Below, piece after piece: positions 4,681-14,861 of a stretch of DNA of 64,000 nt (positions within the stretch are counted from its first letter, which is position 1; every line of letters begins with the position of its first letter). The notes beneath the pieces were generated by a model, which searched no databases, was not told the origin of the DNA, and saw only the letters and a program-made list of their open reading frames with translations. The translations under genes were made by a program, and so were the position numbers. Source of the stretch: Cytobacillus oceanisediminis (lineage in GTDB: Bacteria; Bacillota; Bacilli; Bacillales; Cytobacillaceae). Location: the NCBI RefSeq assembly GCF_004366035.1, contig NZ_SOEE01000010.1, positions 62,001-126,000 on the forward strand. Direction: 5' to 3'.

Positions 4681-5445
4681 TTAGAGTAGCTGTCCACCTG
4701 ATGCCTCGAGACGAGTTGCATTTACCCAGCCCATCTCATCCGTGCACAAGGACGCAACAACCCCTCCGATATCGTCTGCTTCACCGACCCTCCCTAATGC
4801 TGTATTTGTGGCCACAAATTCATTCATTTGAGAATCGTCCCTTACTTTACCACCTCCGAAATCAGTGGCGATAGCTCCTGGGGCGACTACATTGACACGA
4901 ATACCTCTTGATCCCCATTCTTTGGCCATGTATTTTGTCAAGATTTCAATCGCACCTTTCATTGCAGAATAGGCTCCGAAGCCCTCAATTACAAATCGAG
5001 TCAAACCAGTTGAAATATTAATGATCCTTCCATTGTCAGCAATTCTTGAAATCAGCTTTTGAGTTAGGAAAAAAACACCTTTGAACTGTACGTTCATTAA
5101 TCTGTCGAATTGCTCCTCAGTAGTTTCGTCTATTGAAGCGTGTATTCCGAATCCAGCATTATTGACCAAAATGTCGAAATGTTCCCGATTCCAGTTTTCT
5201 TTAAGTATGTCTGACAGTCGAGAGGAAAAATCTTCAAACGAAGATATAACACCTGTATCCAGCTGCAACGCCACTGCTTTTTGGCCGTTATCTATAATTT
5301 CATTAACGACCGCTTCCGCTTCTTCCTTCCGGCTATGGTACGTAACGATAACATCAATTCCTTTTCTGGACAACGCGATGGCAGAATTTCGTCCTAATCC
5401 GCGGCTTCCTCCTGTTATAAGTGCAATTTTTTGAGTTGAATCCAT
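4681..5445 (-). CDS. SDR family oxidoreductase (MerR-regulated)
   Basis: This 254-residue protein is a classical short-chain dehydrogenase/reductase. It shows the nucleotide motif TGGSRGLG (11-18), NNAG (95-98), a catalytic serine near 145 (INIST) and Y159-x-x-x-K163 in AYSAMKGA. It should reduce or oxidise an alcohol, aldehyde or ketone with NAD(P)(H). The ATG is preceded by AGGAGG at nine bases. It is divergent from a MerR regulator, and its promoter has the 19-bp spacer typical of MerR activation, so it is probably induced by the MerR ligand, perhaps an electrophile or aldehyde. The substrate is not determinable. Confidence 0.9.
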   Translation of the reverse strand: MDSTQKIALITGGSRGLGRNSAIALSRKGIDVIVTYHSRKEEAEAVVNEIIDNGQKAVALQLDTGVISSFEDFSSRLSDILKENWNREHFDILVNNAGFGIHASIDETTEEQFDRLMNVQFKGVFFLTQKLISRIADNGRIINISTGLTRFVIEGFGAYSAMKGAIEILTKYMAKEWGSRGIRVNVVAPGAIATDFGGGKVRDDSQMNEFVATNTALGRVGEADDIGGVVASLCTDEMGWVNATRLEASGGQLL

Positions 5446-5686: not shown

Positions 5687-6079
5687 ATGAAATATTCCAT
5701 TAATGAGGTCTCGAAGAAATTTGGCCTGTCCATACACACTTTGCGTTACTATGATAAAGAGGGGCTAATGCCTTTCCTTGAGAGGGATAGAACTGGCAAC
5801 CGTGTTTTCAGTGAAACGGATCTCAACTGGATTTCCATGATCTGCTGTCTGAAAAATACTGGAATGCCCATCAAAGAAATCAAACAGTACGCCGATTGGT
5901 GCACACAGGGGATGCAAACGATTAACGAAAGGAAAGTGATGCTCACCAATCACCGCAAGAAAGTCTTAATGCAACTTGAAGATTTGAAAAAAGACCTTAA
6001 TCTTATTGATTCAAAGATAGAGGTCTATGATAACCCAGAGCTGGCACAAAAGATGTACGGTGGTCTTGAAAAGCAATAG
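5687..6079 (+). CDS. MerR family transcriptional regulator
   Basis: This 130-residue protein starts with the MerR winged helix-turn-helix: KYSINEVSKKFGLSIHTLRYYDKEGLMPF, followed by R-x-G-x-R-x-F (RTGNRVF). A long coiled dimerisation helix runs from about 75 to 118. It lacks the cysteine pair of metal sensors, so it fits the group sensing aldehydes or other organic electrophiles. The start at 5687 is chosen because GAGGAAAGGTGAG lies directly upstream; the longer frame from 5633 would begin inside the promoter. It probably activates the divergent SDR gene and represses itself. Confidence 0.88.
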   Translation: MKYSINEVSKKFGLSIHTLRYYDKEGLMPFLERDRTGNRVFSETDLNWISMICCLKNTGMPIKEIKQYADWCTQGMQTINERKVMLTNHRKKVLMQLEDLKKDLNLIDSKIEVYDNPELAQKMYGGLEKQ

Positions 6080-6174
6080 GGAAAAGCAACTGGTTAATTG
6101 GCGATTCTTATAGAACCTCTTTTTAATGTTTTCAGACCTAACATTATTCCTTATTAAAAAACAAAATTATTGGG

Positions 6175-6203
6175 TTGACGAAAAAATTTTTTAAATGTAT
6201 CAT
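6175..6203 (+). promoter_or_regulatory. Sigma-A promoter of the thioredoxin gene
   Basis: TTGACG (6175-6180) and TATCAT (6198-6203) are separated by 17 bp of A and T tracts. A palindromic operator candidate starts six bases after the -10 box. Confidence 0.7.
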
Positions 6204-6208
6204 TCAAT

Positions 6209-6222
6209 TAATCAATTGATTA
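6209..6222. promoter_or_regulatory. TAATCAATTGATTA palindrome (candidate ArsR-rhodanese operator)
   Basis: This is a perfect 14-bp palindrome just downstream of the -10 box, where a bound repressor would block transcription. Closely related sites lie at 8098, 9463 and 11975. Assignment to the ArsR-rhodanese regulator is inferred from the site preceding that regulator's own gene. Confidence 0.6.
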
Positions 6223-6263
6223 TTAAATCCTTATTAATTATCATAAAAAAGGAGGTTAATTCT

Positions 6264-6584
6264 ATGGGAGCAATAGCACTGACAAAAGAGTCATTTCAAA
6301 ACCACGTTCAATCTGGCCTAACATTGGTTGATTTCTGGGCTCCTTGGTGCGCGCCTTGTAAAGTTCAACTTCCAATCGTAGAAGAGTTAAGCGATGAAAT
6401 GAAAGGACAAGCGACAATTGCCAAAGTCAATGTGGATGATGAACCTGAATTAGCTTCACAATTTGGAATCAGTAGTATCCCTGCATTGATTCTTTTTAAA
6501 GATGGCAAGGTGGCAGACACAATGAGGGGTTTAAACCAAAAGCATGAATTAAAAGATAAAATCTTAGAATTAAATAGTAATTAA
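6264..6584 (+). CDS. Thioredoxin
   Basis: This 106-residue thioredoxin carries C29-A-P-C32 in FWAPWCAPCK and the cis-proline loop SSIPALILF, followed by the C-terminal helix. The active site is WCAPC, not the common WCGPC, so its redox potential may differ from housekeeping TrxA. It should reduce disulfides or protein persulfides in the cytoplasm. The start at 6264 follows AAAAAAGGAGG, while the longer frame from 6195 begins at the promoter. It has its own promoter, a palindromic operator shared with the ArsR-rhodanese gene and a strong terminator, so it looks like an inducible accessory thioredoxin. Confidence 0.9.
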   Translation: MGAIALTKESFQNHVQSGLTLVDFWAPWCAPCKVQLPIVEELSDEMKGQATIAKVNVDDEPELASQFGISSIPALILFKDGKVADTMRGLNQKHELKDKILELNSN

Positions 6585-6588
6585 AGAG

Positions 6589-6629
6589 AAAATCGGCAAA
6601 TACCCCTAATGGTAATTGCCGATTTTTTC
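6589..6629 (+). terminator. Terminator after thioredoxin
   Basis: AATCGGCAA (6591-6599) pairs perfectly with TTGCCGATT (6616-6624) and runs into TTTTTT. Confidence 0.85.
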
Positions 6630-6785
6630 GGTAAACTAAATAAGTTAAGTTGAGAAACATATTATTATAGAAATGAGAGACCATTGATAGTAAAAGGCGA
6701 AAGGCCTGACGGACATTTAACGTTTGAAGATACTGGTTTCAGCTAATGTAGACATGTGTGAGATTATAATAAAAAGGGGGATATT

Positions 6786-7982
6786 ATGATTCCAGGTTCT
6801 TGGAGAGCATTAATATGGATTGGATTATCAGAATTATGTGCATTAAGCTTATGGTTTAGTGCATCTGTTATTGCGCCAGAACTAATTAATATTTGGAACC
6901 TTAGTTCAAACTCGGAGGGTTGGCTGTCTGCTTCTGTTCCAATTGGTTTTGTCATTGGATCTTTATTTATTTCATATTTTGGGATTGCAGATCGTTATAA
7001 TTCTCGGAAGGTTTTTGCAGCTTCAGCGTTTCTAGGAGCAATTTTGAATAGCTTGCTTATACTAGCCGATCAAGCCTTTTTAGGTATCCTGCTTAGGATT
7101 TTTACGGGAATAACTCTCGCAGGGGTGTACCCAATCGCTGTAAAAATTTTATCACAATGGTTTCCGATAAAACGAGGGCTGGCTATCGGAATCTTAATCG
7201 CCGCATTAACCATAGGGTCATCTTTACCCCACTTTTTAGTGATGTTTTTTTCTGAGTTTAATTGGAAGATAGTGATTATTTTTAGTTCATTTCTAGCTTT
7301 AATAGCAGCAATGATTGTCCAATGGCTCTTAGAAGATGCCCCAGAAACATCGAAAAACTTGACGCCTTTTTCTTTTAAATTAATTAAAAAAGTAATTACG
7401 AATAAACCAGTAATGCTTGCTAACTTCGGCTATTTTGGCCATATGTGGGAATTGTATGCAATGTGGACTTGGCTTCCTGCTTTTTTGACCGCTAGCTTTA
7501 CAAGTTATTCATCAGAAATTCCCATTAAGTTCATTGCATTTTCTTCGTTTATTTCAATAGGAATTGCAGGGGCAATTGGTTGTGTAGTAGGCGGGATAAT
7601 CTCGGATAAAATCGGAAGATCTAATCTTACCATTATCTCTATGTTTATAAGCGCTATATGTTCCGTTTTTATTGGGTTTACATTTGGTCAATCTATTTGG
7701 TTAACTTTAATACTTTCTATAATTTGGGGGATGTCTGTCATATCAGATTCTGCCCAATTTTCTGCAGCAGTTTCAGAAGTTGCGGAAATTGAATATGTCG
7801 GGACAGCTCTTACTTTTCAAATGTGCATTGGGTTTCTGATAACCATATTTTCTATAAACTTAATCCCTATTATTCAGAGCTTTGTTGGTTGGGGATGGGT
7901 CTTTTCCTTATTAGCGATTGGACCTATTTTAGGTATAGTGTCTATGGTCAAATATAAGAATTTCGAATTAGATAAGGCATAA
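6786..7982 (+). CDS. MFS transporter
   Basis: This 398-residue protein has about 12 hydrophobic segments in two halves separated by a loop near residues 180-200, the major facilitator layout. A loop between the second and third segments carries the family-like basic motif IADRYNSRKV. In the second half GGIISDKIGRS is the corresponding motif. It should exchange or export a small molecule across the cytoplasmic membrane, with the cation/cyanate or sugar-phosphate-type MFS groups as the nearest guess. The ATG follows AAAAAGGGGG. It has a strong terminator and no shared operator, so it is probably monocistronic. The substrate is unknown. Confidence 0.85.
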   Translation: MIPGSWRALIWIGLSELCALSLWFSASVIAPELINIWNLSSNSEGWLSASVPIGFVIGSLFISYFGIADRYNSRKVFAASAFLGAILNSLLILADQAFLGILLRIFTGITLAGVYPIAVKILSQWFPIKRGLAIGILIAALTIGSSLPHFLVMFFSEFNWKIVIIFSSFLALIAAMIVQWLLEDAPETSKNLTPFSFKLIKKVITNKPVMLANFGYFGHMWELYAMWTWLPAFLTASFTSYSSEIPIKFIAFSSFISIGIAGAIGCVVGGIISDKIGRSNLTIISMFISAICSVFIGFTFGQSIWLTLILSIIWGMSVISDSAQFSAAVSEVAEIEYVGTALTFQMCIGFLITIFSINLIPIIQSFVGWGWVFSLLAIGPILGIVSMVKYKNFELDKA

Positions 7983-7986
7983 ATTA

Positions 7987-8022
7987 TAAAAAACAGGGTT
8001 GCTTCAGCAATCCTGTTTTTTT
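7987..8022 (+). terminator. Terminator after the MFS gene
   Basis: AAACAGG-GTTGC-TTCA-GCAAT-CCTGTTT forms a near-perfect stem followed by TTTTTT. Confidence 0.85.
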
Positions 8023-8063
8023 TGGTGCGAAGTTGAGGCTTCAAAAGAAATCAAATTTATTAC

Positions 8064-8092
8064 TTGACGTAAATCATTATCAGATTTAAAAT
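8064..8092 (+). promoter_or_regulatory. Sigma-A promoter of the second SDR gene
   Basis: TTGACG (8064-8069) and TAAAAT (8087-8092) are separated by 17 bp. The layout matches the thioredoxin promoter, with a TCAATTGA site beginning just after the -10 box. Confidence 0.7.
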
Positions 8093-8097
8093 ACAAC

Positions 8098-8118
8098 TAT
8101 TCAATTGATTGATTGAAC
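8098..8118. promoter_or_regulatory. TATTCAATTGATTG operator candidate
   Basis: TATTCAATTGATTG (8098-8111) differs from the 14-bp palindrome at the thioredoxin promoter in two positions. It continues to ATTGAAC, giving TTCAAT-N6-ATTGAA as a second symmetric reading. Confidence 0.6.
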
Positions 8119-8235
8119 ATTTTAATTAAATCTACTATTGGTAGGCGGTTGTTATTAGTAGAGATGAAATTAAAAAGGACTAATAGTGGTTGATGTAACC
8201 ACTGAACCAAATTATAAGACATGGAGATGAATATA

Positions 8236-9006
8236 ATGAGATTTGAAAACAAAACTGTAATCGTAACTGGTGGAGGTACTGGAATTGGAAAAGCCACTGC
8301 CAAAAGATTCTTTGAAGAAGGAGCAAATGTAATTATTAATGGACGCAGAGAAAATGTGTTAAAGGAAACAGCTTTAGAAATTGACCCAACAGGCAAAAAA
8401 GTGTTATATGTAGCTGGTGACATCAGCAAAAAGGAAACGTCGGAGAATTTGGTTAACAAAGCAGTAGAAATGTTTGATGGTGTAGATGTATTAGTTAATA
8501 ATACAGGGAAATTTAATCCAACACCGTTCCTTGACCATACAGAGAATGATCTACAATCCTATTTAGATACTATCGTTAAAGGAACATTCTATCCTTCACA
8601 AGCCGTTATCCCTGAAATGAAAAAACGCGGAGGAGGAGCAATCGTAAATACTGGTTCCATGTGGGCAATTCAAGCAGTGGAAGCAACGCCTTCATCTGCA
8701 TACTCTGCAGCAATGGCCGGCAGACATGCATTAACAAGAAATTTAGCCGTAGAATTCGCTGGGGATAACATACGAGTAAATGCAGTAGCACCTGCGGTTG
8801 TTGAAACACCAATTTATAATACTTTTATGACAGAAGAACAAGTAGCAGAAGTATTGCCAACCTTTAATGCGTTTCACCCACTAGGACGCAACGGTACTCC
8901 AGATGATGTAGCAAATGCAGTGTTATTCCTAGCGGATGCTTCATCATCATGGATTACAGGCATTATCATGCCGCTTGATGGTGGGGTCACAGCTCGGTTA
9001 AGATAA
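8236..9006 (+). CDS. SDR family protein with YxxxM in place of YxxxK
   Basis: This 256-residue protein has the SDR cofactor motif TGGGTGIG (11-18), a D62 acidic site in AGDIS, NNTG (88-91), S141 in TGSM and the C-terminal DGG. The catalytic motif reads Y156-S-A-A-M160, so the lysine that normally lowers the tyrosine pKa and holds the ribose is methionine (codon ATG). It may be a divergent or inactive reductase, or use another residue. The start at 8236 follows GGAG at eight bases; the earlier ATG at 8221 has no site. Its promoter carries the TCAATTGA operator shared with thioredoxin and the ArsR-rhodanese gene. Confidence 0.85.
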   Translation: MRFENKTVIVTGGGTGIGKATAKRFFEEGANVIINGRRENVLKETALEIDPTGKKVLYVAGDISKKETSENLVNKAVEMFDGVDVLVNNTGKFNPTPFLDHTENDLQSYLDTIVKGTFYPSQAVIPEMKKRGGGAIVNTGSMWAIQAVEATPSSAYSAAMAGRHALTRNLAVEFAGDNIRVNAVAPAVVETPIYNTFMTEEQVAEVLPTFNAFHPLGRNGTPDDVANAVLFLADASSSWITGIIMPLDGGVTARLR

Positions 9007-9011
9007 AAATT

Positions 9012-9047
9012 AAAAAAGGAGCAATCATAAAAAATGGTTGTTCCTTT
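9012..9047 (+). terminator. Terminator after the second SDR gene
   Basis: AAAAAGGAGCAA pairs with TTGTTCCTTTTT, with one mismatch, around a 12-base loop. Confidence 0.75.
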
Positions 9048-9146
9048 TTCTATAATCGAAGATAGTGAGATAGATTAATAGCATCTTTTCTATTAAGGGA
9101 AAGTTGGATGGATGAATACTTAATTGAAGGGAAGGGTTTTTTTTGA

Positions 9147-9318
9147 AAATCAGTCACCATAGTTCAAAACTACAGAGAATCATGGATGTCGGTAAAGAAA
9201 CTTGTTCAAGAACGAGGATATAATTAGGTTAGTTTTGCAGATATAGCCTAAGCTGCAGGAATTCGTATGAAACCTAAAAAGGTTGCTTGTGCTAAGTCCT
9301 GCTTGGTGGAAAAATAGA
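9147..9318 (+). pseudogene. Decayed TetR family regulator, N-terminal part
   Basis: The frame through 9201 reads KKLVQERGYN-stop-VSFADIA-stop-AAGIR. This is the TetR helix-turn-helix (normally like LVxERGYxxxSFADIAxAAG) broken by TAG at 9225 and TAA at 9249. Nothing resembling the ligand-binding part follows. It sits directly upstream of the ArsR-rhodanese gene and shows that this locus has lost an older regulator. Confidence 0.7.
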
Positions 9319-9462
9319 ATGAAAATTGAAGGAACTATACATTGTAAACGGTGATATGTTAATTTCCAGCTAACCAGAAAAAAACCTCTGTAATCTTCTT
9401 CACTTGAGCATATGAAATCATAACTTGTTATTCTCACTTCAACTATAGTATTATCAACAATG

Positions 9463-9478
9463 TAATCAATTGAATAAT
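9463..9478. promoter_or_regulatory. TAATCAATTGAATAAT operator candidate at the ArsR-rhodanese gene
   Basis: The core TCAATTGA (9466-9473) with flanks TAA/ATA differs from the perfect palindrome at the thioredoxin promoter by one base over 14 positions. It lies 15 bases before the start codon, which suggests autorepression. No clear -35/-10 pair was assigned. Confidence 0.55.
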
Positions 9479-9492
9479 AAAGGATGATTAGT

Positions 9493-10164
9493 ATGGAAGA
9501 GCTCTTTTCATCTGCAAAAAATTATACAGATGAACTATATAAACAATTATCAAGAGTCGGAAAAAGTTTATCCAGCGATAAGCGCCTTGAGATATTAAAT
9601 TTATTAAGCCAGGGTCCAAAAACAGTAGAAAAGATAGCGAAGGATTCAGGTATGAGTGTTGCAAATGTTTCTCGTCATCTTCAAATTTTGAATGACTCAA
9701 GATTAGTTAAATTTACTAAAAAGGGAACGTATGCTTTTTATACATTAGCTGATCCATCTGTTGCAGACTTTTTGTTTGCCCTTTGGAAAATTGGCGAGAC
9801 TCAACTTTCAGAAATCAATCGGATTAAAGATGATTTTTTAGGTGGCCTAGGAGACTTCTATACACTAACGATGGATGAAGTATACGAGAAGATGAGCAAC
9901 GGGAATATTACGCTTATAGACTTGCGTCCAAAAGATGAATATGAAGCTGCACATATAGAAGGAGCGGTCTCTATTCCTATGGAAGACTTGGATTCATATC
10001 TTCAAGAATTACCGAGAGAGAAAGAAGTTATAGCCTATTGCAGAGGTAAATTCTGTGCTTTTTCAGCTATAGCTGCTCAAAAATTGAAGGATCAAGGGTT
10101 TACTGCCTACCGTATGGCGGAAAGTATTCTTGAATGGCAGAAGTATCTGGATCAAAAAAATTAA
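9493..10164 (+). CDS. ArsR family regulator fused to a rhodanese domain
   Basis: This 223-residue protein has an N-terminal ArsR winged helix (residues 15-90; recognition helix near MSVANVSRHLQIL) and a C-terminal rhodanese domain (128-220). The domain has the DxR motif LIDLRPKDEY and an active loop C183-R-G-K-F-C188. Family knowledge: such fusions and other sulfur-sensing ArsR proteins respond to persulfides or electrophiles through cysteine chemistry, and thioredoxin resets them. The start at 9493 follows AAAGG at nine bases; the ATG at 9484 lies inside that region. A TCAATTGA palindrome precedes the gene and recurs at the thioredoxin, SDR and amine oxidase promoters, so it is the probable local regulator. 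Confidence 0.88.
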   Translation: MEELFSSAKNYTDELYKQLSRVGKSLSSDKRLEILNLLSQGPKTVEKIAKDSGMSVANVSRHLQILNDSRLVKFTKKGTYAFYTLADPSVADFLFALWKIGETQLSEINRIKDDFLGGLGDFYTLTMDEVYEKMSNGNITLIDLRPKDEYEAAHIEGAVSIPMEDLDSYLQELPREKEVIAYCRGKFCAFSAIAAQKLKDQGFTAYRMAESILEWQKYLDQKN

Positions 10165-10552
10165 TATATCTATCATGACTATAGAATATGAACGTTTATA
10201 TGCTTTCTTTTTGATTGTTTTTACAAAGAACAATGTGAATTGAAAGTATTCCTTGGCTAATGCCATACACTATTAAATCTACAGGGTTGTTTTTATAGCA
10301 ATAAAAATGTTCTTTAATAATGTCAGTAAGAATGGAATAAGAGAGTAAATAATGTTTTTATTTTTGTACTTATTGGGAAAGACAAATTTTATAACACATT
10401 CTTTCATCGGTGTGATTTTCATAATTTATGCTTCCTTTCTTACTGACATACATTTTTCACTAATGCATTCTTGAAGATTATATGAAAACCTTTTAAACCA
10501 TTGATACTCTCATATTTTTCCGAATATTTTGATAAATAGAGAGGGAAAAATA
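10165..10552. other. Intergenic stretch with a 130-bp inverted-repeat-bounded segment
   Basis: This AT-rich stretch contains no gene that I can support. It holds one notable structure, a 13-bp perfect inverted repeat listed separately. The last 50 bases should contain the promoter of the decayed CMD gene. Confidence 0.4.
10320..10449. repeat. Possible small mobile element with 13-bp terminal inverted repeats
   Basis: ATGTCAGTAAGAA (10320-10332) and its exact complement TTCTTACTGACAT (10437-10449) bound 104 bases of AT-rich DNA with no ORF. The form is MITE-like. No clear target-site duplication was seen, and no second copy lies in the window. Confidence 0.35.
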
Positions 10553-10983
10553 ATGAATAATGATAGTCTATATAAAAAATCTAATATAAATCGTTTAGGA
10601 GAATTTAGCAAATTGTCTCCTGATGTATTTAATGCATTTGCGGCTTTTGACAAGAAGGCATTGGAAGCTGGTAAATTAAGCTCCAAAATAAAAAAGTTGC
10701 AATAGCTGCAGCCCTTACAACAGGGTGTCCTTATTGTATAGAACTCCATGTTAAGCAATGAGACCTGGAGAACTTAGTGTTAAGGAAAAAGAGCTGATCG
10801 CAATTGCCGTAGCCCATACAACAGGGTGTCCATATTGCATCGACATTCACACTAAAGGAGCAAAAAAAGCCAAAGCGACAAAGGAAGAAGTAGCTGAATC
10901 TATTTGGTTGCTACAGCATTAAAATCAGGAACTGCCCTTGCATATGGAGTAAATGGATTAATTGCATTTGTTGAGTCCATTTA
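10553..10983 (+). pseudogene. Decayed carboxymuconolactone decarboxylase/AhpD-like gene
   Basis: The ATG at 10553 follows GAGAGGG and begins a recognisable CMD-domain protein (RLGEFSKLSPDVFNAFAAFDK). The frame is lost near 10690. The AhpD-type redox motif then appears twice, TTGCPYCIELH near 10717 and TTGCPYCIDIHTKGAKKA near 10817. A further shift occurs near 10905, before ATALKSGTALAYGVNGLIAF and the stop. At least three frame changes make an intact product impossible. The repeated motif segment (about 101 bp apart) indicates an internal duplication or fusion of two paralogues. Intact relatives are small peroxidase-like proteins using the CPYC pair. Confidence 0.8.
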
Positions 10984-11117
10984 ACTTTTTATCCTTCTCT
11001 AACCAAATTTAAAAAATGCTATATATTCAGGAGTGTTAAAGCGGTTAAAGATAAGAGAGCTTATCAGCTGCAAGCACACCAATAATTGGTTTCAAAAGGT
11101 AGAAGGCCAGTATAACT

Positions 11118-11630
11118 TTACAGATTTTTTCTTTCTGCCGGATGTGGGGGTTTGTGAATTTTATTATCTAAAAAACAAATTCCCTCCATGCATCCTTTAA
11201 CAAGCAAAAACGTAGATGAGAGAACTGCAAATGTAATATAGCCATTCCATCCCTTATGATATTTGACTAAATTTGTATTCTTTTCAAGCCAATTCTCAAA
11301 TAGCGTCATGGGTCCGCTAAAAAGGATAACACTTAAGATTGTTTTTATTGGCTTCATTTTATAGGTAAATTGATTATACATAACACATGATAAAGGAAAC
11401 AGTATGTATAAAAACACAATGTTTGAATCAAAAAATTTAGGTAGATAGCGATGTGGATATTCCAAATATTTTGTTTTTATTACTGGTCCATCAAATACAG
11501 TAGAGACTAAAGTTTTAATAAAGTAAATTAGAAACCAGTCCTTTAAATCTCCTTTTTTTCGCGTTAAAAAAAATATGCTTCCGCCAATTCCAAACATGGT
11601 CAATAAATTCAATATTGTTCTGTCCTTCAT
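11118..11630 (-). CDS. CBO0543 family membrane protein
   Basis: This 170-residue protein has about five hydrophobic segments and the signature seen in CBO0543 proteins: YLEYPHRYLPKFFDSNIVFLYILFP, then a helix with MTLFENWLEKNTNLVKYHKGW. The start at 11630 is taken because AGGAGGTG lies five bases upstream; the longer reading from 11660 covers that site. Function is unknown. It resembles the protein at 53967 and, more distantly, those at 54649 and 56857. It is monocistronic on the minus strand. Confidence 0.8.
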   Translation of the reverse strand: MKDRTILNLLTMFGIGGSIFFLTRKKGDLKDWFLIYFIKTLVSTVFDGPVIKTKYLEYPHRYLPKFFDSNIVFLYILFPLSCVMYNQFTYKMKPIKTILSVILFSGPMTLFENWLEKNTNLVKYHKGWNGYITFAVLSSTFLLVKGCMEGICFLDNKIHKPPHPAERKNL

Positions 11631-11660
11631 AAATACACCTCCTAAAAATAATTTATCCAT

Positions 11661-11940
11661 TGCAAAATGTATTATTAGCTGAAAAACAAATTATTAGTTT
11701 CACCAACAAGAAACTGGTTATTTTATACTAACGCTCATTTATCAAGGTTAATTAATGTAAATTATCTATTTTCGCCCGCGGAATAAACAACTGGGCTTTA
11801 TGAAAATTTATTGACTCAGATGAGTATCGCGTGTAATTACAGAATTAAATTTGTCTGCCACCTGGGATAAAGAAGAGAAATAGGGGGATTCTGGTTCAAA
11901 CATACTTAATCCTACTGATGATGAGAAAGAGACTTTCCTC
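11661..11940. other. Gene-free stretch
   Basis: Between the CBO0543 gene and the amine oxidase promoter I see no gene. Short frames around 11800-11940 carry neither a start signal nor family motifs. Confidence 0.35.
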
Positions 11941-11969
11941 TTGACTAAAGAAGTCACACCTCATATAAT
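11941..11969 (+). promoter_or_regulatory. Consensus sigma-A promoter of the amine oxidase operon
   Basis: TTGACT (11941-11946), a 17-bp spacer and a perfect TATAAT (11964-11969). It is the strongest promoter-like sequence seen in the window and is followed at once by a palindromic operator candidate. Confidence 0.8.
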
Positions 11970-11974
11970 TCAAT

Positions 11975-11996
11975 TATTCAATTTATGAATTGAATA
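11975..11996. promoter_or_regulatory. Large palindromic operator of the amine oxidase promoter
   Basis: TATTCAATT (11975-11983), a 4-bp centre and AATTGAATA (11988-11996) form a perfect inverted repeat just after the -10 box. A further TCAATT half-site lies at 11970-11975. It resembles the sites at 6209, 8098 and 9463. Confidence 0.65.
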
Positions 11997-12077
11997 ATGT
12001 CTTTTTGAAAATGTTTTACACAAAAATCTGCAGTAATTTCTAACCAGCCAATACTGTTCTAATAATTGGAGGTATTC

Positions 12078-12230
12078 ATGAAGATTGATGTTTGTTCGAA
12101 AAAAATAGATATCACATTTTGTTACATGGGGAAAGTTTACTTTGATGAGGCAAATACTAAAAAGAAAAGCTCTTTCTCACGCATATGTAGAAAGCCCGCA
12201 CACACGATGGGAAGGAGGAATAAATTTTGA
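12078..12230 (+). CDS. Small unrecognised ORF (50 aa) coupled to the amine oxidase
   Basis: An ATG at 12078 lies five bases after GGAGG and opens a 50-residue frame that ends in TGA at 12228-12230. This overlaps the TTG start of the amine oxidase at 12227, which suggests translational coupling. The peptide (MKIDVCSKKIDITFCYMGKV..., then a very basic C-terminal half) matches no family I know. Two cysteines, C6 and C15, are present. It may be a leader peptide, a small regulator or the remnant of a longer gene. The strong initiation site is the main evidence. Confidence 0.45.
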   Translation: MKIDVCSKKIDITFCYMGKVYFDEANTKKKSSFSRICRKPAHTMGRRNKF

Positions 12231-13342
12231 GCAATCCTATAGTTATAGTGGGAGCTGGTTTAAGCGGCCTTCGTGCAGCGTCTCTGCTTTCTGAACTGGG
12301 CATAAAATGCAGGGTTCTGGAGGCTAGAGATAGGGTTGGAGGAAGGGTGTTGAGTACTCCACATCCAAACAGATCTGACGCGGGTAAGTTTGACCTCGGG
12401 CCGACATGGTTCTGGCCACAGCATGAGAAGACTATGGCTAATTTAGTCAAGGAACTGAATTTAGAAACCTTTGACCAGTACACTAAAGGAGCAATGCTTT
12501 CAGAGCGATACCATAACGCATTACCTGAGCGTTATGTACTGCCAGAAAATTCTCTTGAAAGATCGGTGCGATTTACAGGAGGAGTTCAATCCCTTATTGA
12601 AGCTATTGAAAATACAATTCCGCCTGGCATAGTTGAGTTAGAAACGAGAGTAACAGCAATTCGACTAGATAAAACCGGTGCAATCACACTTGACGTTGAG
12701 CATGCAAATGGAAGTAAAGAAGAAGTCTATGCCAGTGCTGTTATCTTAGCATTGCCGCCTCGAATTGTGGCGAGTCATATTGAATTCTCTCCTTCACTCC
12801 CTAAAAACCTTATGACTGATCTTGTAAATAAACCTACCTGGATGGCAGGGCAGGCGAAGGCAGTTGCAATTTATGATCATCCTTTTTGGAGGGAATCAGG
12901 GCTCTCTGGCTTCGCAGCGAGCTGGGTTGGACCTCTGCAAGAAATCCATGACGCTTCTCCTAATACAGGCTCTGGTGCCTTATTTGGTTTCTTCGGGATG
13001 CCAGCAAAAATGCGAAGAGAACTCGGGGAGGATGAAATATTAAAATTGGTCATTGACCAATTGGTTCGGCTATTTGGACCTGACGCCAATAAAGTGAGTT
13101 CTATACTTTACAAAGATTGGTCCGGAGATTTCGAAACGGCTGTTGAGGAAGACAGCAATCCCCTTAGGGACTTTCCTGTATATGGTAAACCGCCGCAAGG
13201 AGGAGTATGGGAAAATAAAATCATTTTCGCTGGTACAGAGACTAATTCACAATATGGAGGACATCTTGAAGGTGCACTTCAGTCAGCTGAACAGGCAGTA
13301 TTTGAAATCACTAATCTAAAAAACAAAACCTTATTAAGATAA
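12227..13342 (+). CDS. FAD-dependent amine oxidase family protein
   Basis: This 371-residue protein is a flavin monoamine oxidase-like enzyme. It has an N-terminal dinucleotide fold VIVGAGLSGLRAASLL (residues 4-20), E33 in VLEARDRVGGRV for the ribose, and the C-terminal FAD motif IIFAGTETNSQYGGHLEGALQSAEQA. It would oxidise an amine to an imine with release of H2O2. It is shorter than the roughly 450 residues of many relatives. The start is a TTG seven bases after GGAAGGAGG and overlaps the small upstream ORF. It lies behind a consensus promoter with a palindromic operator shared with the ArsR-rhodanese group. The substrate is unknown. Confidence 0.85.
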   Translation: MSNPIVIVGAGLSGLRAASLLSELGIKCRVLEARDRVGGRVLSTPHPNRSDAGKFDLGPTWFWPQHEKTMANLVKELNLETFDQYTKGAMLSERYHNALPERYVLPENSLERSVRFTGGVQSLIEAIENTIPPGIVELETRVTAIRLDKTGAITLDVEHANGSKEEVYASAVILALPPRIVASHIEFSPSLPKNLMTDLVNKPTWMAGQAKAVAIYDHPFWRESGLSGFAASWVGPLQEIHDASPNTGSGALFGFFGMPAKMRRELGEDEILKLVIDQLVRLFGPDANKVSSILYKDWSGDFETAVEEDSNPLRDFPVYGKPPQGGVWENKIIFAGTETNSQYGGHLEGALQSAEQAVFEITNLKNKTLLR

Positions 13343-13396
13343 CTTAATACAATTAAACAATTTATTATGATATTTTTTTCTCTTATCCTCAAAAAT

Positions 13397-13732
13397 TCCA
13401 TTCACAGCAGCAGGAGGCCGTATGTGATGAAAATGATGAAAGCTATTTCATCTCTGATAAATGGCCTTGGTTCAGACAGTGAGCTTATAATCGCAGCTGG
13501 CTCTGGTGAGCAGCTGGAATTGTCAGCAATGGACTTTTTAAAAGGATCAAATACGGTTAGAGGTTCATTTACTGTCCAAGCAAAGGATATCCAAGAAGCC
13601 GTTAAATTCAGTGTTTCCACTGATGTACGCCCAATGATTGAAACTTTACCATTAGAACGTGCTAGTGAAGCATACGATAAAATGATGGCTGCTTCGACTG
13701 GATTTCGTGCTGTACTAAAAATCTCTGAGTAA
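13397..13732 (+). pseudogene. C-terminal remnant of a zinc-type alcohol dehydrogenase
   Basis: The frame matches only the last third of medium-chain alcohol dehydrogenases: the strand with ELIIAAGSGEQLELSAMDFL, the NTVRGSFT turn, the VRPMIETLPLERASEAYDKM helix and the FRAVLKI end. The catalytic zinc domain and the nucleotide-fold motif are absent upstream, where the amine oxidase already ends at 13342. It is therefore a truncated gene, probably left by a deletion, and unlikely to be active. Confidence 0.75.
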
Positions 13733-13841
13733 TTTTTATCAGTGGTTTTACCTTTCACAATGTCATAAAATAACAGTTAATAGGGATATAAAAGTTAAAT
13801 CGACATTTAAATCTCGGGAATAACCTTATTGAGGAGGAAGA

Positions 13842-14327
13842 ATGGTGGAGGAAAGAATTGAAAAAGCAATTCAAGATATTTACCCTGATGACTTTGCCTG
13901 GTGTTATGGATGTGGAAGATTGAATAAGGATGGTCATCATCTTCGAACGGGCTGGCAAGGGGACAAGACCGTTACAATTTTTAAACCCGATTCAAAGTAC
14001 ATGGGTATCCCAGGCTTTCTTTATGGTGGACTTATGGCATCATTAATAGATTGTCATGGATCCGGCTCAGCTGCACTTGCTTTACATTATAAAAACGGAA
14101 ACGAAATCGGTGATGGGACCGAACCGCCTCGATTTGTTACGGCTTCTCTTAATGTGGAATTCCTAAAACCTACTCCACAAGACGTTCCGCTAAAAGCTAT
14201 TGGAACTGTAGAGGAAATTCATCCAAAAAGATGGAAAGTCCATACAGAAGTATATGCCGATGATAAATTATGTGCTCGTGGAGAAGTAACTCTTGTCGTA
14301 ATGCCAAGTACTTTTATAAATAAATAG
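13842..14327 (+). CDS. PaaI-like hotdog-fold thioesterase
   Basis: This 161-residue protein has the hotdog thioesterase layout. A long central helix follows GIPGFLYGGLMASLIDCHGSG (the PaaI-type HGG region read here as YGG with D67 nearby), then strands with RFVTASLNVEFLKPTP. An N-terminal CYGCGRLN motif precedes the fold, as in many PaaI-like proteins. It should hydrolyse an acyl-CoA, substrate unknown. The ATG follows GAGGAGG. It lies downstream of the amine oxidase and the dehydrogenase remnant and may be the last gene of that operon. Confidence 0.8.
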   Translation: MVEERIEKAIQDIYPDDFAWCYGCGRLNKDGHHLRTGWQGDKTVTIFKPDSKYMGIPGFLYGGLMASLIDCHGSGSAALALHYKNGNEIGDGTEPPRFVTASLNVEFLKPTPQDVPLKAIGTVEEIHPKRWKVHTEVYADDKLCARGEVTLVVMPSTFINK

Positions 14328-14861
14328 ATTGATAAAAATGTTTTATCAGGAAAAGTTAATTTTTATATTAATAAATTATTTCTATATCACTCAAATCCTA
14401 TAACTTTTTTTCCACCCAAACATTTTCAATAGTGTTCATAGATTACAATTAACACTTTCATAAAAAATGCCCAACTCCTTGGTATATACGGGATTGGGCA
14501 TTTTAAAATTTACTTCATATTTAATGTTAAGAAGGATTAACGCTTATTTGCTTGGTTCGACTAAAAAATTTCAATTAATAAATGTTTTAAGATTGCAGCA
14601 TTGGTTTAATATGGCTTTCAGTACTTTCAAGATAAAATATTAGAGAAAAAGTAAAATAGTAATTTAAGCTACTTCAATAAGATTTGATTAATTACCTTCA
14701 ATATTCGTGCTTTTCTGATTCAAAAATACGCGTTCTCTTTATTGTTTTAGGTACTGATGGGAGATAATGCATTATAAACGCATGGCAAATTTCAACCTTG
14801 CGTTTTTTTTATGGACAATTTTCTTCCTAATAGTTGTTAAAATGAATCTTTGTTCAATACC
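14328..14861. other. Intergenic stretch between thioesterase and IclR genes
   Basis: This 534-base AT-rich stretch has no gene that I can support. It holds a strong bidirectional terminator (14462-14504). A second hairpin, AACGCA...TGCGTT, at 14776-14810 is followed by eight T on the plus strand, but I see no plus-strand gene that it would end. Confidence 0.4.
14462..14504. terminator. Bidirectional terminator
   Basis: AAAATGCCCAA (14464-14474) pairs perfectly with TTGGGCATTTT (14494-14504). A and T tracts on both sides allow function for the plus-strand thioesterase operon and for the minus-strand IclR gene. Confidence 0.8.

Follow-up and report, generated by a model that had tools for sequence, protein, structure and literature searches.

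Within a 64,000-nucleotide stretch of Cytobacillus oceanisediminis DNA (contig NZ_SOEE01000010.1, positions 62,001 to 126,000; hereafter the window), comparison with related sequences indicates that an ArsR-rhodanese fusion protein very probably switches thioredoxin and other thiol-repair genes through one shared site. The operator unit that emerges from the alignment of its sites is TTCAA-N8-TTGAA, in the window form TTCAAT-N6-ATTGAA, situated on or just after a sigma-A -10 box. The original prediction, made from the letters of the window alone, had linked such a palindrome to the fusion protein, and this link found support in the regions upstream of homologous regulator genes, in a motif-first genome scan and in related Priestia and Paenibacillus loci; on these comparisons, the regulator very probably pairs with this operator. 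Comparative sequence evidence supports not only the pairing but also the position of the operator, its target genes and the invariance of the regulator's cysteines. As the best model, the protein would likely be a repressor that senses reactive-sulfur or disulfide stress through a dithiol and is reset by the thioredoxin that it induces.

A shared operator at redox promoters of the window

The elements that bear on this finding are listed below (SDR, short-chain dehydrogenase/reductase), with positions counted from the first base of the window.

6175..6203, + strand: thioredoxin promoter, sigma-A-type by sequence (TTGACG 6175-6180, 17 bp, TATCAT 6198-6203)
6203..6220, strandless: thioredoxin operator TTCAATTAATCAATTGAT, with 1 mismatch to TTCAAT-N6-ATTGAA
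6264..6584, + strand: thioredoxin with a CAPC motif, TIGR01068
8064..8092, + strand: SDR promoter (TTGACG 8064-8069, 17 bp, TAAAAT 8087-8092)
8100..8117, strandless: exact SDR operator TTCAATTGATTGATTGAA, 7 bp after the -10 box
8236..9006, + strand: SDR oxidoreductase with YSAAM replacing YxxxK
9425..9478, + strand: the regulator's own promoter (TTGTTA 9425-9430, TATTAT 9449-9454) with a degenerate operator
9493..10164, + strand: ArsR-rhodanese fusion regulator, 223 residues
11941..11969, + strand: amine oxidase promoter (TTGACT 11941-11946, 17 bp, TATAAT 11964-11969)
11977..11994, strandless: exact amine oxidase operator TTCAATTTATGAATTGAA, 7 bp after the -10 box
12227..13342, + strand: FAD-dependent amine oxidoreductase

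At the thioredoxin gene, the operator begins on the last base of the -10 box and overlaps it by that one base, and at the amine oxidase promoter an additional half-site, TTCAAT at 11969-11974, overlaps the -10 box. Our reading of boxes and spacings bore out the predicted position at the -10 box for the thioredoxin, SDR and amine oxidase promoters. The four predicted palindromic sites are likewise all present, although the motif proved longer and differently centred than supposed, and weak at the regulator's own gene; the "larger inverted repeat" described at 11975-11996 exists, but is the standard operator. The palindrome originally proposed, TAWTCAATTGAWTA, is perfect at 6209-6222 and 9463-9476, carries one mismatch at 8098-8111 and two each at 11975-11988 and 11983-11996; with up to two mismatches it has nine matches in 64 kb against 3.72 expected, a number reached in 1 of 100 shuffles. 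For its bare core TCAATTGA there is no enrichment, since the 5 copies stand against 3.16 expected and 24 of 100 shuffles reach that count. Being at or near chance and off-centre, both were rejected as the recognition unit.

Such figures raise the explanation that the sites are chance palindromes in AT-rich promoter DNA: in the window the core occurs about as often as chance predicts, and the exact copies of TTCAA-N8-TTGAA in the whole 64 kb number two, against a shuffle mean of 0.48, which equals the highest count among 60 shuffles. Two copies are within the shuffle range, so the window alone makes a weak case, which is carried by its relatives. Against chance, both copies fall within the 8.3 kb of 6100-14400, where 0.057 are expected, each relative locus holds three to five exact copies against 0.037-0.083 expected, and the operator recurs at homologous genes in many genomes. 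Chance is already refuted, and its remaining probability is negligible.

Across the 5.84-Mb genome, TTCAAT-N6-ATTGAA occurs exactly eight times, twice at this locus, in both cases at redox promoters. Five of the remaining six copies lie within open reading frames (ORFs), and the only other intergenic one precedes, by 334 bp, an ORF with no sign of a redox role in its first 40 residues. Had the motif been just as frequent within coding sequence or at promoters of unrelated genes, the original prediction would have been refuted; on small numbers, the outcome favours it.

The operator accompanies the regulator gene in other genomes

Searching 398 genomes of the class for the exact pattern CTATTCAA-N8-TTGAATAG returned matches in nine, once each, against one genome for the reversed control. 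Eight of the nine matches are located just upstream of an ArsR-rhodanese gene (42-48% identity). Such genes are present in about a tenth of the class genomes (39/398 at E<=1e-35), and the co-occurrence of motif and gene alone, with adjacency uncounted, has a hypergeometric P of 3.5e-8. The window's own genome is outside the nine; its sites misfit this longer pattern.

Furthermore, a family search identified a homologue at E<=1e-30 in 24 of 193 genomes. For 42 distinct homologues (31-100% identity, that of the window included), the best site was scored in a 120-nt stretch running from 90 nt before to 30 nt after the inferred start. The site, a candidate autoregulatory inverted repeat, was exact in 26, and the other best sites had one mismatch (2 homologues), three (12) or four (2). 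Exact TTCAA-N8-TTGAA sites precede homologues down to 35% identity, and their carriers are genomes of the family to which the window belongs, plasmids of lactic acid bacteria and a single Phaeobacter plasmid (L099, at the regulator). The 14 misses comprise the window itself, where the repeat is degenerate, the four Priestia plasmids, L062, one Paenibacillus copy, L034, L048, L096, L097, L098, L100 and L102. The Paenibacillus copy has an exact site farther up, at 254 bp in the divergent region; L097 and L102 have exact sites before DsbA and trxA, respectively, and L048 a one-mismatch site upstream of the preceding major facilitator superfamily (MFS) gene (L080), while no site was found upstream of the gene preceding L034 either (L067). 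At the window's own gene, only the right half, TAATCAATTGAATA (9463-9476), matches the target sites, with three of ten core bases misfitting; in two Priestia relatives compared, 49 (L058) and 48 (L055) of the 50 bases before the regulator gene are identical to those of the window. Six distant matches from a single-query contig search (33-39% identity, with segments in the rhodanese half) were dropped.

Among the eight lactic plasmid loci, five (L060, L101, L103-L105) carry the operator both at arsR-rhodanese and before the thioredoxin operon, and the remaining three have one site each, at arsR in L061 and at the places given above in L097 and L102. The plasmids L060 and L101-L105, three of these six from kimchi, combine arsR-rhodanese with a thioredoxin operon (Trx and TrxB, with DsbA and an FAD oxidoreductase where the sequence reaches), which is a candidate garlic-tolerance operon. 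Kimchi is named as the source in 32 of 54 lactic rows among the matches listed (197 records in all), a link that is suggestive at most.

Related plasmid loci share operators and target genes

A plasmid DNA search yielded five Priestia records, all with an ArsR-rhodanese gene of 74-77% identity; four (L055-L058) were compared, and the fifth (H4), of the same length as H3 and a near-identical match, was left out. Three of these four have an annotated FAD oxidase. The operator precedes the SDR gene in all four, and in L055-L057 also trxA and ytxJ (at ytxJ with one mismatch in two of these plasmids); L055 and L057 additionally carry it before the FAD oxidase and, with one mismatch, before a zinc dehydrogenase. 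On the Paenibacillus plasmid L059, whose regulator is 60% identical, exact operators are situated before an operon of carboxymuconolactone decarboxylase (CMD), DsbA, OsmC and PatB genes, in the trxB/arsR intergenic region and before trxA. Two large contigs, L137 and L138, repeat this arrangement (gene names read from translated ORFs), and in L137, with genes matching those of the Paenibacillus plasmid, the operator lies on TTGAC-17-TATAAT promoters of trxA-arsR, of trxB-OsmC-Trx-OYE (OYE, old yellow enzyme) and of CMD-DsbA-OsmC-PatB.

Across the window's first 16.7 kb and five annotated plasmid loci, the exact core occurs 20 times, always between genes and at most 400 bp upstream of one, which in 18 cases is SDR, ytxJ, FAD oxidase, trxA, CMD or trxB; the 20 include three overlapping pairs, and L055-L057 are close relatives. 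Sites with one mismatch in the same six loci are intergenic in 10 cases and genic in 5. We also hand-picked 15 promoters from window-related loci plus L140 and L141 and read their boxes by eye: 13 have TTGAC, a 17-bp spacer (in L141, 18 bp) and TATAAT or a box differing from it by one base, and the operator starts on the last base of this box. The two exceptions are position 11430 of L140, with TTGAAT as its -35 box, and position 5650 of L058, where the boxes are absent.

The targets themselves are related, as the window thioredoxin is 84% identical to the operator-preceded trxA product of plasmid p-LAD5 (L055), the FAD-dependent amine oxidoreductase 78% identical to its operator-preceded p-LAD5 relative and the SDR 93% identical to the Priestia plasmid SDR of L055. 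The catalytic lysine of YxxxK is a methionine (YSAAM) in the window SDR as in the four Priestia plasmid copies read, that of L055 among them; being common to these copies, it is a conserved change and not a sequencing slip. The ArsR-rhodanese gene is present in all six loci, partly by design, since the loci were found via the regulator or its locus, and the independent support is therefore that of the motif-first scan. MerR, CsoR, TetR and MarR regulators were rejected as master of the operator; by annotation, none is present in all six.

A rhodanese dithiol as candidate sensor

The regulator joins a winged helix (about residues 29-73) to a rhodanese domain (126-217) with the loop YCRGKFC. Its ArsR assignment is backed by PF01022 (51 bits, cut-off 22) and NF033788 (69 bits, cut-off 55), and its rhodanese assignment by PF00581 (61.2 bits) and an active-site cysteine, C183, opening the loop. 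The rhodanese cysteines C183 and C188 are positioned as predicted. They are the only cysteines of the protein, both in the rhodanese domain with none in the ArsR winged helix, and are invariant (YCRGxxC) in 40 of 40 distinct homologues, among which no other cysteine column reaches 30%. In thiosulfate-type rhodaneses, an Arg or Thr ends the six-residue catalytic loop (+5). Here the +5 residue is Cys in 40/40 (CRGxxC) instead of Arg/Thr, and for this reason the loop looks like a dithiol switch, not a normal sulfurtransferase. Given this pattern, sensing by C183 and C188 is moderately likely.

Two invariant cysteines could also bind a thiophilic metal, as ArsR proteins often do. The rhodanese loop would then be no sensor of reactive sulfur but a device for sulfur delivery to or removal from a partner, or would hold metal or arsenite at C183-C188 while the ArsR part serves as a metal-type switch. 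We consider this unlikely, against the absence of cysteine from the winged-helix domain, of any annotated metal efflux gene behind the operator in the six loci, and with most target genes being thiol redox genes. The closest solved ArsR domain is mycobacterial (2kko/3gw2, E 3.7e-14, residues 15-100), presumably Mb0332/Rv0324; its 108-residue chain matches the ArsR part only, and the structure listing describes ArsR only.

Thiol-sensing ArsR repressors are already known as a kind, and the protein resembles SqrR and BigR in its ArsR winged-helix fold, its two-cysteine sulfur switch (here only proposed) and its control of sulfur genes. Whereas the pair of these repressors (C41/C107 in SqrR, C42/C108 in BigR; PMC9774590) lies within the ArsR fold, here it lies in the loop of the fused rhodanese, and the ArsR domain has no cysteine. 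The window protein thus lacks the two redox cysteines inside the ArsR domain that define SqrR/BigR and, by the position of its pair, is neither; the NCBIfam BigR model gives it 27.9 bits against a cut-off of 155. An open-access literature search, with most matches judged from listings, returned no operator, regulon or signal assigned to ArsR-rhodanese fusions.

For the sensor-repressor model, we infer that the regulator dimerises and binds DNA, and likewise its thiol chemistry, its inducer and the feedback through thioredoxin. The protein encoded at 9493-10164 would be a dimeric ArsR-type repressor with the fused rhodanese domain as its sensor. In the reduced state, it would bind the copies of TTCAAT-N6-ATTGAA that span or closely follow the -10 box at the thioredoxin, SDR and flavin-oxidase promoters, and thereby exclude RNA polymerase. 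Reactive sulfur, whether persulfide or polysulfide or a disulfide-type compound such as a thiosulfinate, would attack Cys183 of the rhodanese cradle, and Cys188, five residues on, would resolve the adduct into a disulfide or polysulfide link. The linked dimer would change shape and leave the DNA, permitting transcription of the thiol-repair genes, and thioredoxin, itself a product, would reduce the link and reset the repressor. Judged from the sequences, repression is very likely the mode of control, rather than activation. The thioredoxin reset, an idea of the original prediction, is credible by analogy because thioredoxin reduces the polysulfide link of SqrR and restores repression (PMC10044876).

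Conflicting observations and a competing regulator

Several observations weigh against a regulon built on this regulator and this site. The ninth match of the motif-first scan (L127/L142) is not at a regulator gene; it comes after an SDR gene, with about 2 kb to the start of the next ORF of at least 85 residues. The full operator is absent from the regulator's own promoter in the window, the four Priestia plasmids and L062, and the 3.5-kb locus of L062, whose regulator is 70% identical, offers nothing better than two mismatches; for the Rhodococcus, Allomeiothermus and Acidithiobacillus homologues (L096, L098 and L100), the site was not found upstream. In L058, operators also precede a hypothetical gene and a divergent MFS gene. 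Moreover, where Priestia plasmids carry CMD-DsbA-OsmC and OYE, these genes lack a separate operator, and upstream of CMD both L055 and L057 show a TACC-N4-GGTA palindrome that fits the local TetR regulator; the tested p-LAD5 tolerance genes may, on this reading of the sequence, be under the control of an AltR-type protein. In the window, the CMD and alcohol dehydrogenase genes are broken, and DsbA, OYE, OsmC, trxB and ytxJ have no match. Finally, the half-sites TTCAA/TTGAA are not private, as TTCAAATAAATGTTTGAA lies upstream of a CadC-like ArsR gene of the same genome, and L128, one of the eight motif-first matches at a regulator gene, also has a plain ArsR gene, which starts 278 bp away across the site.

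The last two points bear on the possibility that another ArsR-family protein, such as the CadC-like metal sensor on contig C3, binds the operators and that the ArsR-rhodanese protein is a bystander. Two exact TTCAA-N8-TTGAA sites precede the CadC-like gene, so the half-site is a design of the superfamily. Judged from this paralogue's own sites, CadC/CzrA metal sensors share the TTCAA...TTGAA inverted-repeat layout, but the inner operator bases differ. Sensors of the CadC/CzrA type have metal ligands and act on metal efflux genes. At position 6, the base is A in the CadC-like sites (TTCAAA...TTTGAA), T or C in those of the window, Priestia and Paenibacillus, and G in some lactic sites (TTCAAGCAAACAATTGAA); the ArsR-rhodanese version seems recognisable by its inner bases, with mostly T/C at this position, and by CTA/TAG on the outside. 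Of three other ArsR genes checked in the genome, two have no site in the 180 nt scanned. Set against these differences and the eight of nine motif-first matches at ArsR-rhodanese genes, control by another ArsR protein is very unlikely. The two sites before the CadC-like gene are neighbouring copies of TTCAAATAAANGTTTGAA at G000:C3:241767-241830 (L107, L108).

The island copy in the window

Two further genes of the locus are incomplete:

10553..10978, + strand: broken CMD (AhpD/AltE-type) gene, matched only piecewise
13427..13732, + strand: zinc-binding alcohol dehydrogenase, C-terminal fragment

A full-length annotated CMD relative occupies the same place in plasmid pELP1.24a_1 (L058), and the dehydrogenase fragment, over 13439-13729, is 88% identical to residues 224-320 of a 320-residue plasmid relative. 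With CMD broken and the zinc dehydrogenase truncated, the island copy looks decayed; its operators are kept at three intact targets. Inspection by eye had suggested a DsbA-like N-terminal peptide near 12080-12225, but tblastn with the Priestia DsbA did not bear it out, giving no window match. On the thioredoxin side of the island, a MerR-family regulator stands beside a divergent SDR gene (5687-6079 and 4681-5445), possibly a separate electrophile-response pair; the best NCBIfam match of this regulator is NmlR, under its cut-off.

Signal and relation to thiosulfinate-tolerance clusters

The class of signal, be it persulfide, disulfide, thiosulfinate or electrophile, we infer from gene neighbours and literature. 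The rhodanese fold is a natural persulfide acceptor. The regulator could accordingly be a plain sulfide/persulfide sensor of H2S homeostasis, with thioredoxin, SDR and oxidase handling sulfane sulfur and not plant thiosulfinates or electrophiles. Relatives on other genomes adjoin TusA-, DsrE-, metallo-beta-lactamase (MBL)/persulfide-dioxygenase-, TauE- and CstR-like genes (our reading of translated ORFs), the first four kinds pointing to sulfane sulfur as the signal, and SqrR, BigR and CstR, of similar kind, sense reactive sulfur (PMC9774590, PMC9918477). Plasmid relatives, on the other side, adjoin DsbA, CMD/AhpD, OsmC, OYE and Trx/TrxB genes, the kinds of which Pseudomonas PfAR-1 allicin-resistance clones are built and among which ahpD and dsbA each confer resistance when overexpressed (PMC7119367); one such plasmid's record is the source of a tolerance-restoring altC/altE pair (PMC12306174). 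We hold the plain sulfide sensor to be a genuine possibility, somewhat less likely than not.

That pair, from Priestia aryabhattai LAD (NZ_CP072478.1, here L055), raised thiosulfinate tolerance in a Pantoea alt deletion strain (PMC12306174); the gain was published for these genes, not for the window locus, and the main text of that paper mentions neither ArsR nor rhodanese. The altC gene of Pantoea encodes DsbA, and its altE gene a carboxymuconolactone decarboxylase (PMC8417944). Allicin-resistance (alt) clusters occur in Pantoea, Burkholderia and Pseudomonas (PfAR-1), with alt-like ones in Priestia aryabhattai LAD and Paenibacillus nuruki. Like these, the relatives of the locus hold between them DsbA (altC), CMD/AhpD (altE), SDR (altB), OYE (altA), OsmC, Trx and TrxB; unlike them, the window has no match to DsbA, OYE, OsmC or trxB, and its CMD is broken. 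The alt set of DsbA, CMD and TetR (altR) is found in L055-L057 but not in the window, where no TetR was present among ten proteins scanned.

AltR, the TetR-family regulator of allicin tolerance in Pantoea, is a functional parallel, in that thiosulfinates de-repress a thiol-redox cluster via its Cys100 (PMC13178969). Cysteine-based de-repression (proposed here) and inverted-repeat operators at several promoters are common to both, whereas the folds are unrelated and AltR binds CAATCTAC-N6-GTAGATTG (PMC13178969). CMD-DsbA-OsmC is preceded by the ArsR-rhodanese operator in Paenibacillus and by a different palindrome in p-LAD5, TACCGAATGGTA, which fits that plasmid's own TetR (AltR-like) regulator. 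Members of this second palindrome family, TACC-N4-GGTA, lie before CMD-DsbA-OsmC and elsewhere (L055 515-560, 15590-15625 and 19900-19935) and probably serve the TetR regulator. A further palindrome, TATACC-N6-GGTATA, stands directly after a CsoR gene (L055 7590-7620); p-LAD5 apparently has three regulators on one redox island.

For clusters of the Priestia/Paenibacillus type, thiosulfinate-type compounds are a tentative candidate as natural inducer. Many regulons of Bacillus subtilis respond to allicin, including those of the metal-type ArsR, CzrA and CsoR (PMC6943732), so a response to allicin would not by itself demonstrate a dedicated sensor. A term search in a garlic-medium proteomics study of Weissella koreensis (PMC8226471) gave no support either way.

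These comparisons leave room for a broader proposal, which we advance with reserve: a mobile Gram-positive thiol-stress regulon built on a possibly new type of one-component sensor, in which the rhodanese loop (YCRGxxC) may be the dithiol sensor of an ArsR repressor. Through its TATAATTCAAT-N6-ATTGAAT promoters, this repressor may control genes for allicin/thiosulfinate tolerance on plasmids of Priestia, Paenibacillus and lactic acid bacteria from kimchi, as a counterpart of the Gram-negative AltR. The comparative data give ArsR-rhodanese fusions an operator and candidate target genes, and other bacteria, some of them isolated from soil or kimchi, have the same regulator-site pair, sometimes beside relatives of garlic- and onion-toxin protection genes. 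The locus is a compact test case for thioredoxin-reset sulfur sensing, and its connection with alt-like genes hints at a way for Gram-positive bacteria of soil and kimchi to detect the thiosulfinates of garlic and onion.

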